The position numbers and the translations under genes were made by a program. The notes beneath the pieces were generated by a model. It saw nothing but the letters and a program-made list of their open reading frames with translations, made no database searches and was not told where the DNA came from. A DNA stretch of 48,460 nucleotides from Planctomycetales bacterium (GTDB lineage: Bacteria; Planctomycetota; Phycisphaerae; Sedimentisphaerales; Anaerohalosphaeraceae), in NCBI GenBank assembly GCA_022615575.1, contig JAKEGM010000039.1, positions 1-48,460 of the forward strand, read 5' to 3'. Position 1 is the stretch's first letter, and every line of letters starts with the position of its first letter. Positions 8,921 to 13,069 of this stretch are shown piece after piece.

Positions 8921-10420
8921 ATGTTTTTTCAAAAGGAATTACGGTGTTTCACAAAGGACCGAAACAGGATTGTATCCCTGTTAGTTCTTAGTGCGGCCAT
9001 TCTTTCGGGCGGCCTGTGTGTTGCTCAGGAATCGGGCACATACGAACAATCGGTCGTAATGATTTTGGCGGTTAATCAGGAGTATGATTACGCGACCCCT
9101 TGGAAAAAGGGGCCAATGGGCCGCGGCGTGGGGTCAGGGTTTATTATTGAGGGGAACCGAATTCTGACCAATGCTCACAATGTGGCCAATCAGCGGTACC
9201 TTGAGGTCAAAAAGCAGAATCTTGCCCAGCGGTACCCGGCTCAGGTTGTGTTTGTCGGCCATGATTGCGATTTGGCGCTGTTGGCAGTTGCTGACCCAAC
9301 GTTTTTTGAGGGGACAGCCCCCCTGGAATTCGGCGGGCTGCCGAAGGTCAATTCCATGGTTCAGACCTGCGGTTTTCCGGTCGGAGGCCAGCAGATATCC
9401 ATCACCAAAGGAGTTGTATCTCGTTTAGAAACAAGCGTTTACGGACACAGCCAATCGGCGCAGCATTTGGCAGTGCAAACCGATGCCGCTATCAATCCAG
9501 GCAATTCCGGAGGGCCGGTTCTGCAGGACGGCAAGGTGGTCGGCGTGGCCTTTCAGGGCTTGCAGTCGGCGGATAATATTGGATTTATGATTCCCACGAC
9601 CATTATCGCTCATTTTCTTAAGGATGTTCAGGACGGCACTTATCATGGATTTGGAACGATGGGTGTGTCGATGTTTCCGGGGCTGCATAATCCGAGCTAC
9701 AAAAAGTACTTAAAAGTCCCGGATGAGGATGATGGCGTCGTTATCACTCATGTCTTGCTCAACAGTACAGCTTACGGCATCCTTGAAAAAGGGGATGTCA
9801 TCACAAAAATCGATGATTTCAATATTGATAACGACGGTCTGATTATGATTGACGGCCTATTGCTGGAATTGACCGAGGCCATGGATCGCAAGCAAGTCGG
9901 CGAAACCCTGCAAATCACCGGCTATCGCGGCGGGGAAAAAATACAGAAAGAGATTTCCATTGCGCTGAATAAAACCATTCTTCCATGGAATCGCCAGTAT
10001 GATACGAAGCCGGCCTACCGGATTTTTGCGGGGCTGACATTTGTGCAGCTCAATCGCAATTTTCTGGAGGATTGGGGGCAGAACTGGGTGTCGGCTGTCC
10101 CGTTTGAGCTGCGGTATTTGTTTGTCGACTCCAATCTGCTCAACAAGGACTCCGCCCGAAAGGAGTATGTCGTGCTTTCTGAAATCCTCCCCGATGAGGT
10201 CAACGCCTATTTGGAGGGCTACAAAAACCAGGTTGTCGAAAGCATTAACGGCATTCGTATAAATGAGTTAGGTGACCTTGACAAGGCCTTCCAAGAAGAT
10301 AAAAACGGATTCTGGGTTGTCAAGTTTCTCAATAATGACAGTTCTATGGTTGTCAATGCCGAACAGGCGAAGCTTCGCCAGCCGGCCATTCTTGAACAGT
10401 ATCAGATTCCTTCAGAATAA
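8921..10420 (+). CDS. Exported trypsin-like serine protease with PDZ domains (active member of a tandem pair)
   Basis: This is a 499-residue HtrA-like protease. A signal segment (about 17-36, ending near LCVAQ) indicates export. The S1C triad is intact: His86 in TNAHNVAN, Asp117 in HDCDLALLAV and Ser196 in NPGNSGGPV. A PDZ domain follows (about 240-345, with ILEKGDVITKID), then a ~150-residue C-terminal region that includes a second PDZ-like fold. The arrangement resembles plant-type Deg proteases with an extended C-terminus rather than DegP. The next gene, 12 bases downstream, is a full-length homologue with all three catalytic residues replaced. The substrate is unknown. The two are probably translated together and may form a mixed complex (inference). 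Confidence 0.9.
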   Translation: MFFQKELRCFTKDRNRIVSLLVLSAAILSGGLCVAQESGTYEQSVVMILAVNQEYDYATPWKKGPMGRGVGSGFIIEGNRILTNAHNVANQRYLEVKKQNLAQRYPAQVVFVGHDCDLALLAVADPTFFEGTAPLEFGGLPKVNSMVQTCGFPVGGQQISITKGVVSRLETSVYGHSQSAQHLAVQTDAAINPGNSGGPVLQDGKVVGVAFQGLQSADNIGFMIPTTIIAHFLKDVQDGTYHGFGTMGVSMFPGLHNPSYKKYLKVPDEDDGVVITHVLLNSTAYGILEKGDVITKIDDFNIDNDGLIMIDGLLLELTEAMDRKQVGETLQITGYRGGEKIQKEISIALNKTILPWNRQYDTKPAYRIFAGLTFVQLNRNFLEDWGQNWVSAVPFELRYLFVDSNLLNKDSARKEYVVLSEILPDEVNAYLEGYKNQVVESINGIRINELGDLDKAFQEDKNGFWVVKFLNNDSSMVVNAEQAKLRQPAILEQYQIPSE

Positions 10421-10432
10421 AAAGGGCACATT

Positions 10433-11917
10433 ATGAAATGCAATAGTTTTACCTGGATGGTGATTGCGGTTTTTGGGGCATTGACCCCCCTGCCGCTTTG
10501 GGCTGAAGAGCCGGCGGATTTGACCGAGCCGATGAAAAAATCGCTGGTTTATCTGGAGATATCCAACAGCCGTTACGAACAGTATCAGCCGTGGAAACAG
10601 ACGGCCATCAGCAAGGAAGACGGGTATGCCTGCGCTGTCGGGCCGTACGAAGTCCTGACGACCGCAGAAAATGTATTGAATGCAACCTTAGTTCAAGCAA
10701 GGTGTTACGGACAAAATGAATACATCCCGGCCAAGGTGTCGGTCGTGGATTATGAATACAATCTGTGCTTGCTGGAGTTGGATAAATCGGCGATGGAAGG
10801 GCCTTTAACGCCCTTGCAGTTTGTGGAAAAGTTCCCGAAAGGCAAGTCCCTGGATTCGTATTGGCTGTCGGGCGGCGGACAATTGACAAAAGCCCGCTGC
10901 ACATTAGACCGGGCGGAAATGCAGCGCTCGAGCGTCTCGTATGTTTCGAATTTAATCTTTTTTGCCACGAATGTGTCGCGGGGATTTGGCGACGGAGAGG
11001 TTTGCTGTTTTGAAAAAGAGACGATAGGGATGGCTTGTTGGGGAACGGATTCAGATTCGGGAATCATCCCTTCCGAAACAATCAATAGATTTTTAACCTA
11101 TTGCAAAAAAGAGGGTTACTCCGGTTTCGGCACTGCCGGCTTTGAGGTGCACGAGCTGCTGGATCCAACGATGCGGCAGTATTTAAAGCTGCCCGGTGAG
11201 ATCAAGCATGGGGTCTATGTTGGTACGGTCTATTCGCTTGGCACGGGAAGCAAGGAGCTTAAACAGGGTGACGTTATTCTGACCATTGATGGGCAAACGC
11301 TTAATCCTTATGGACGGTACGAGCATCCGCAATATGATCGCATCTCCTTTTCAAATCTGATTTTACAGAAGCCCGATGGCGCCGTTATTCCCTTTGAAAT
11401 CTTTCGTGACGGCACAAAGCGAACCGTGGATGTGGTTGCCAGAAATATAAAATCAAAGGAAATGTTGATACCGTACTATCTGTATTCACAACAACCTGAA
11501 TATATTGTTGTCGGCGGCTATATTTTGCAGAAGCTTTCACGCGATTTCCTGGGCATGTGGGGGAGCGACTGGGCGGGTGAGGTCCCCCCACACCTCTACC
11601 ATTATTATCAGGATTTTTCGTTTAAGCCGACAAGTGAGCGGAAAGACATCGTTGTATTAAGTTATGTACTGCCGGCAGAAATCAATCTGGGCTATCAGGA
11701 ACTTTCCATGCTTGTGGTTGATTCTATCAATGGTAAAAAAATCCGCGAAATGAAGGATATCCCGGCAACACTCGAGTCCAATGATTCGGAGTTTATCGAA
11801 ATCACATTTGAAATGAATTCTCCGGCCATTATCATTCCCAAAGACAAACTGGCCGTGGCGAATATGCAAATAGCTCAGATGTATGGAATCTCAAAGACGA
11901 TGAACATCCGGCAGTAG
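10433..11917 (+). CDS. Catalytically dead paralogue of the upstream protease (pseudoprotease)
   Basis: The 494-residue protein aligns along its whole length with the preceding protease: QPWKQT with TPWKKG, TTAENVLN with TNAHNVAN, YEYNLCLLEL with HDCDLALLAV, GYSGFGTAGFEV with TYHGFGTMGVSM, and LKQGDVILTIDG with LEKGDVITKIDD. His86, Asp117 and Ser196 correspond to Glu79, Asn110 and Gly186, so no triad remains and the GNSGG oxyanion loop is gone. The signal peptide (about 8-25, cut near WAEE) and PDZ region are kept. The frame is intact with no stops, so this is a maintained non-catalytic protein rather than a decaying gene. It could act as regulator, adaptor or substrate holder for its neighbour (inference). 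Confidence 0.88.
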   Translation: MKCNSFTWMVIAVFGALTPLPLWAEEPADLTEPMKKSLVYLEISNSRYEQYQPWKQTAISKEDGYACAVGPYEVLTTAENVLNATLVQARCYGQNEYIPAKVSVVDYEYNLCLLELDKSAMEGPLTPLQFVEKFPKGKSLDSYWLSGGGQLTKARCTLDRAEMQRSSVSYVSNLIFFATNVSRGFGDGEVCCFEKETIGMACWGTDSDSGIIPSETINRFLTYCKKEGYSGFGTAGFEVHELLDPTMRQYLKLPGEIKHGVYVGTVYSLGTGSKELKQGDVILTIDGQTLNPYGRYEHPQYDRISFSNLILQKPDGAVIPFEIFRDGTKRTVDVVARNIKSKEMLIPYYLYSQQPEYIVVGGYILQKLSRDFLGMWGSDWAGEVPPHLYHYYQDFSFKPTSERKDIVVLSYVLPAEINLGYQELSMLVVDSINGKKIREMKDIPATLESNDSEFIEITFEMNSPAIIIPKDKLAVANMQIAQMYGISKTMNIRQ

Positions 11918-11941: not shown

Positions 11942-11979
11942 AAAAACGTTGTGTTTCACGTGAAACACAACGTTTTTTT
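11942..11979. promoter_or_regulatory. parS site centred in a perfect 36-bp palindrome with T-run (parS / terminator)
   Basis: The 16-base core TGTTTCACGTGAAACA (11952-11967) matches the classic parS consensus that ParB binds. It is the centre of a perfect inverted repeat with 18-base arms (11942-11977) ending in a run of seven T. The hairpin lies 25 bases after the pseudoprotease stop and has the form of an intrinsic terminator. The parB gene begins about 150 bases later. Confidence 0.93.
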
Positions 11980-12013: not shown

Positions 12014-12029
12014 TGTTTCACGTGAAACG
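12014..12029. promoter_or_regulatory. Second parS site
   Basis: TGTTTCACGTGAAACG differs from the parS consensus only at the last base. It lies 46 bases from the first site and about 100 bases upstream of the parB start. ParB binding here could both nucleate the partition complex and affect parB transcription. Confidence 0.9.
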
Positions 12030-12130
12030 TTAAAATTTTTAGTTTTCTTCTGGCATTTTGTAATTGATTTTGTTTAATTAGGCCGACGATTAAAAACAGG
12101 ACTTTAACGCAGTTGTATTCGGAGGCAAGA

Positions 12131-13069
12131 ATGACGGAAACAAAAAAAATCAAAAAGCCGCACCTTGGCCGCGGCCTGGAAGCGCTGATGGGCCCTGTTT
12201 CGAGGAATAGAGAAGATATTCAGCATCCAGGCAATTTGGCCGGTTCCCCGCCGGATCCGGCCATTGAATCGGCTAAAAATATACTTCCTGTTGGGCAGAT
12301 ACGCTCAAATCCATACCAGCCGCGAACAACCTGGGACGAAGAGCAGCTCAAAGGGCTTTGTGATTCGATTCGAGAACACGGTATTATCCAGCCGATTATC
12401 GTCCGCAAAAATACAGACGGCTACGAAATCATCGCCGGAGAACGTCGTTTTCGGGCTGCCTGCATGGCTGGACTTGAAACGGTCCCTGTTTTGGAAAGAG
12501 CCGCCTCCGACGAAGAAATGCTCGAATTGGCGCTGATTGAAAATATCCATCGTTCAGATTTGAACCCAATTGAACGGGCAAGGGCGTATCAGAACTTTAT
12601 AAATTCGTTCAATTTAACACAAACCGATGCCGCCAAACGGCTTGGAGAGGACCGCGCGGTAATCGCTAACTATTTGAGATTGCTTGACTTACCGTCAGAC
12701 CTCAAGCAAATGCTCAGTGGCGGGCAGCTCAGTATGGGGCACGCACGCGCAATCCTTGCGCTGCCGTCAGACGATCTGAAGCGGAAGCTGGCCAATCGGG
12801 CAATGGCAGGGCGGCTGAGTGTCCGGGAGGTCGAACGTCTGGTGCGAAAGTATGTTGAGGAAAAAATAGAAGAGCCAGCCACAAAGAAGGAAAAAGCGGC
12901 CCATATAGTCCATTTAGAGAAGAGATTGCAGGAAGTGCTTGGCACAAAAGTTAACATTAAGGCAAACAAACGCGGGCATCGAGGCAGAATCATTATCGAT
13001 TATTATTCAATTGATGAATTCGAGCGCCTGGCAGAGCGAATGGGTCTTTCGCTTGAGGAGACAGTATAG
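12131..13069 (+). CDS. parB: Chromosome-partitioning protein ParB
   Basis: The 312-residue protein begins with the usual basic tail and LGRGLEALMG box. The N-terminal CTP-binding ParB/Srx domain includes NPYQPR and GERRFRAACMAG (CTPase motifs), followed by ENIHRSDLNPIERARAY and the helix-turn-helix LTQTDAAKRLGEDRAVIANYLRLLDLP that reads parS. A C-terminal dimerisation region ends the protein. ParB clamps slide from parS and organise the origin region with ParA and SMC. The start at 12131 has GGAGG 6 bases before it; the track start is six codons too early. No parA is adjacent, which is unusual, since parA normally lies directly upstream. Two parS sites lie in its leader. Confidence 0.96.
   Translation: MTETKKIKKPHLGRGLEALMGPVSRNREDIQHPGNLAGSPPDPAIESAKNILPVGQIRSNPYQPRTTWDEEQLKGLCDSIREHGIIQPIIVRKNTDGYEIIAGERRFRAACMAGLETVPVLERAASDEEMLELALIENIHRSDLNPIERARAYQNFINSFNLTQTDAAKRLGEDRAVIANYLRLLDLPSDLKQMLSGGQLSMGHARAILALPSDDLKRKLANRAMAGRLSVREVERLVRKYVEEKIEEPATKKEKAAHIVHLEKRLQEVLGTKVNIKANKRGHRGRIIIDYYSIDEFERLAERMGLSLEETV

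Follow-up and report, generated by a model that had tools for sequence, protein, structure and literature searches.

A parS site predicted to double as the stem of an intrinsic terminator upstream of parB in a Planctomycetales bacterium

Can one palindrome serve both as a DNA site for ParB and as the RNA hairpin of a transcription terminator, and if so, are the two functions linked? These questions are raised by a locus in a 48,460-nucleotide stretch of a Planctomycetales bacterium (class Phycisphaerae; contig JAKEGM010000039.1; this stretch at its full length is referred to as the window). Positions 11942-11977 read AAAAACGTTG-TGTTTCACGTGAAACA-CAACGTTTTT, a perfect 36-bp palindrome (no strand) made up of a parS core and a 10-base arm on each side of it (strict arm, 18 bases). 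The 16-bp core, TGTTTCACGTGAAACA (11952-11967, no strand), is an exact match to the parS consensus. The palindrome starts 24 bases 3' of the stop codon of a pseudoprotease gene (end 11917), and parB lies downstream; an earlier note on this DNA, which had centred parS in such a palindrome just 3' of this stop, gave its coordinates correctly. A second parS that is absent from that note, TGTTTCACGTGAAACG (12014-12029, no strand), has one mismatch to the consensus and outer arms that are unpaired. These two sites, referred to here as distal and proximal with respect to parB, are the only parS sites in the 2.39 Mb draft genome, plus one two-mismatch match on another contig. As one of two predicted ParB-binding sites before parB, the distal parS should bind this protein.

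The genes on either side of the parS pair are all on the + strand. The first (8921-10420) encodes an HtrA/DegP-like serine protease in which the GNSGGP motif is intact and which matches Pfam Trypsin_2, PDZ_2 and PDZ_3 (the match to NCBIfam degP_htrA_DO is below the family cut-off). It is separated by 12 bases from a gene for an HtrA-like pseudoprotease (10433-11917; PDZ_3 match, 5.6e-29), and the two presumably form one operon, referred to here as the htrA operon. In an alignment with its upstream paralogue, the pseudoprotease has Glu in place of the catalytic His and Asn in place of Asp, and the Ser motif is lost. This same gene is found upstream of parB in genera g1, g2, g12, g13 and g16, five genera of the family. 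The parB gene (12131-13069) encodes a 312-aa protein with Pfam ParB_N, HTH_ParB and ParB_C domains and a TIGR00180 (parB_part) match above the cut-off. Between the proximal parS and parB, a promoter-like CTGGCA-17 bp-TTTAAT (12050-12078, + strand), found by eye without a statistical test, is probably the parB promoter. An alternative promoter-like TTGCAA-TAAAAT overlapping the proximal parS was set aside in its favour, also by eye only. In several relatives, the proximal parS is likewise followed, at varying distances, by CTGG and, downstream of that, a CCGA-like motif. No parA gene was seen adjoining parB; genes for two ParA/Soj-like ATPases lie on other contigs of the source genome, G000 (C156, C157; L143, L142). 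GC skew placed no origin within the window.

With respect to its exact 16-bp core beside parB, a second site approximately 60 bp away and a three-domain ParB, this locus resembles chromosomal ParABS systems with the B. subtilis-type consensus TGTTTCACGTGAAACA. It differs from them in that no parA gene was seen beside parB and in that the core is extended to a longer RNA hairpin with a U-tract, positioned after another gene. Transcribed in the direction of the htrA operon, the palindrome stretch is predicted to form a stem of 16 bp capped by an ACGU loop (-19.6 kcal/mol; z of -4.8 relative to dinucleotide shuffles), and the RNA of the proximal parS gives a weak fold. The candidate terminator stem-loop, CGTTG-parS-CAACG (11947-11972, + strand), is supported by both the RNA fold and the covariation of its arms, although its stem base is only moderately G+C-rich in the source genome. 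It is followed immediately by seven T (11973-11979, + strand), the putative terminator U-tract. The earlier note had placed all seven T after the palindrome: the tract exists, but its first five T also pair with the A residues at 11942-11946 and had been counted twice, such that only two of the seven lie beyond the palindrome. A U-tract right after a stem is the signature of a terminator. Classical hairpin-plus-T terminators are found at other gene ends in the window, including a strong bidirectional one between two converging genes (2537-2560), indicating that this organism uses them. In four genus members (L005, L009, L010 and L011), the axis of the parS core is occupied by a CA or TG step (GTTTCACATGAAAC or GTTTCATGTGAAAC); this change falls in the RNA loop and the hairpin is intact.

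ParB was found in 54 of 59 related genomes, and the closest named relatives by ParB similarity are Phycisphaerae metagenome assemblies. Genus g1, to which the source genome belongs, comprises 10 genomes picked by taxonomy without regard to arms; the three genomes of g16 were added after their arms had been seen, so that of the pairing figures given below, the one for g1 by itself is the one without selection. In all 10 g1 genomes, parB is preceded by two parS-like sites, one distal and one proximal, with the distal one located 3' of the same pseudoprotease gene. In nine of them, the distal core is surrounded by paired arms that vary in sequence from species to species and is followed by a 3' T-run, and the same arrangement is present in 3/3 genomes of g16, a sister lineage. 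Examples of these arms are CGTTG/CAACG (source genome), AAGAGA/TCTCTT (G007), ACAGGGG/CCCCTGT (G006) and GGGGTG/CACCCC (G005). G001 and G002 have one stem mismatch each, and in G003, a 57% complete draft, the stem is broken at the distal site and the T-run is retained. The distance from the pseudoprotease stop to the hairpin axis is roughly 28-50 bases throughout g1 and g16, except in G002 (138 bases). The parS hairpin is usually the sole credible terminator in the gap between the htrA operon and parB; in G002, it is the proximal parS that forms part of the top-scoring hairpin there.

The arms vary in sequence and remain paired. At positions 9-14 of the g1 distal arms, 55/60 pairs are Watson-Crick, whereas 20,000 shuffles gave a mean of 34 and never more than 53; the same positions at the g1 proximal parS give 24/60 pairs versus a shuffled mean of 20, which is about chance. 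Among the 13 genomes of g1 and g16, both partners have changed at each of the seven outer pairs tested; the score for covariation, 0.77, exceeds that in shuffles (0.20; 0/500 reached it) and those obtained on sliding the partner (0.26 at most). The shuffles leave relatedness in, but members of the sister pairs G000/G007 and G002/G004 in the ParB tree still differ at paired positions: between G000 and G007, double changes have occurred at 4/6 outer pairs and pairing is still full. The T-run is one-sided. In each of the 13 genomes, it lies on the 3' side as the htrA operon is read, with 6-7 T in a stretch of 8 bases, and A residues are fewer at the mirrored 5' position in every one of them. A terminator for the htrA operon needs such asymmetry, while a symmetric DNA site does not. 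The element has three features of an intrinsic terminator: a stable predicted hairpin, a 3' U-tract directly after the stem and compensatory pairing across relatives.

We consider it very probable that the distal parS has been put to a second use as the stem of a terminator of the htrA operon, of the ordinary intrinsic (Rho-independent) type, one that would shield the proximal parS and the parB promoter. Polymerase arriving from the htrA-pseudoprotease operon would transcribe across parS, and the palindrome in the RNA, reinforced by its paired outer arms, would form a hairpin beside the U-tract, releasing polymerase approximately 10-15 bases past parS. Transcription would thereby be kept from continuing into the proximal parS and the promoter of parB, which follow within a few tens of bases. 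In its DNA form, the 16-bp core would be one of two ParB loading sites. The core would be held by selection for ParB binding and the arms and T-run by selection for RNA pairing, so that both functions would share the sequence and mutual regulation would not be required. That transcription ends here in vivo, that ParB binds the core and that the downstream sequences are shielded are inferences. The earlier note suggested that one element could both end transcription and bind ParB; at the level of sequence, a terminator that also carries parS gains good support from the variable but paired arms, the 3' T-run, the fixed place after the same gene and the usual lack of another credible terminator.

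Beyond these two genera, arm pairing at parS is about what chance would give. At 82 parS-like sites of other relatives, positions 9-14 are paired in 33% of the cells scored, with at least 5/6 pairs at only four sites. In genera g2 and g12, the upstream pseudoprotease gene is retained and the gap contains parS sites, but their arms are not G+C-bearing; other terminators in the gap were considered for these genera, and the candidates were weak only. In G060, a g2 genome, the proximal parS is flanked by GATTT/AAATC arms and followed by a T-run, and one g13 genome, G033, has a bulged version of the arrangement. Scans for a core followed by a T-run gave matches in 27/397 genomes of the class and 3/294 of the phylum; among the matches with the left arm examined, no G+C-bearing paired arms were found outside g1, g16 and the one bulged g13 case. 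In most of the other class matches, the core runs straight into T. The ParB tree places g1 with g13 and g16 with g2, and the arm-terminator label needs two changes; two gains and one origin with losses are both possible. As parS occurs without arms and a T-run both at the proximal site and in relatives outside the clade, arms are not needed for parS itself.

The earlier note had gone further, proposing that ParB clamp loading is linked to polymerase passage at this site. Under such a scheme, ParB occupancy would tune how often htrA-operon transcripts terminate and how often they run on into parB, or stopping polymerases, through their passage or release, would clear ParB or reset its loading. 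Both signals do overlap base for base, at a site between the htrA operon and parB, and the arrangement has been kept in two genera. We nevertheless regard mutual regulation as unlikely. Polymerase must transcribe the whole of parS before reaching the T-run, and because it crosses the distal parS in order to terminate, the terminator gives that site no protection. ParB-DNA clusters (B. subtilis ParB) had no effect on E. coli RNA polymerase in vitro and did not slow it, and transcription did not prevent condensation (PMC10681803). Furthermore, a parS without arms of this kind is kept at a similar position in g2 and g12, and no terminator accompanies the proximal parS. According to a review, loss of Spo0J in B. 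subtilis left the expression of genes beside parS sites unaffected, and ParB of P. aeruginosa repressed genes adjoining two parS sites (PMC7022226). The latter observation makes local ParB effects possible in principle. On these sequences, use of the site for both purposes appears well supported and a coupled switch unsupported; when arm conservation was checked in relatives, a terminator in the genus was upheld (9/10 genomes), but coupling as a general property was refuted by the armless parS sites elsewhere. If coupling were true, there would be feedback between transcription of proteostasis genes and chromosome segregation.

Strong 3' hairpins of any kind can protect mRNA, and the parS hairpin is stable, so the element might instead stabilise the 3' end of the htrA-operon mRNA, or be a site at which this mRNA is processed, and not mark the point of termination. 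We judge this slightly less probable again than coupling: a U-tract directly 3' of the stem is present in nearly all genomes, and most have no other credible terminator in the gap. It is more doubtful still that the outer arms simply extend the ParB-binding site into a longer centromere with no terminator. The palindrome is perfect and symmetric in the DNA and its core is parS, as such a site would have it, but arm sequences vary between species while pairing persists, the T-run is one-sided, and arms are missing both from the proximal parS and from the parS sites of other relatives. Coincidence in one genome has a negligible probability: simple scans do yield terminator-like sites in shuffled sequence too, but this one is kept with covariation in 9/10 g1 and 3/3 g16 genomes, and a perfect 10-base arm beside a given core has a chance of approximately 4^-10.

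The terminator that we favour is similar to other intrinsic terminators in having a hairpin and U-tract soon after a stop codon, with compensatory changes that keep pairing. It differs in that a DNA site for a protein dictates the sequence of the upper stem, leaving only the stem base free to vary. A precedent for such reuse is provided by the DNA uptake sequences of Neisseria and the Pasteurellaceae, which have been co-opted as terminator stems (PMC1852404, PMC2397512). In both cases, a DNA motif kept for another purpose would be reused as a terminator stem; uptake-sequence terminators, however, are built from pairs of motifs that are scattered in many copies through the genome, whereas the element described here is a single palindromic centromere site, used once, in a draft genome with only two parS sites. 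No report of a parS terminator was found in the literature searched, which covered few subscription journals. This locus looks like a clear example of the second use of a bacterial centromere site, as an RNA signal: the core is fixed for the protein and the arms covary for the RNA. It offers a natural setting for asking if transcription through parS disturbs ParB, and it serves as a warning that a parS palindrome can also belong to a terminator.

Cores resembling parS and followed by T are also found in viral contigs. A scan of these contigs (L147-L226) recovered at least 120 stretches in which a parS-like core is followed by six T, with near-identical flanks common to several contigs. Among the matches listed, the arms are not paired beyond chance (140/414, versus a shuffled mean of 135). 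In one contig, L222, the sequence at approximately 2800-2840 reads GGGAGGT-GTTTCAC|GTGAAAC-GCCTCCC, followed by a T-run. Among the products of this contig is an N4-gp56-like major capsid protein (match below the family cut-off), and the element is possibly a separate parS-like terminator.
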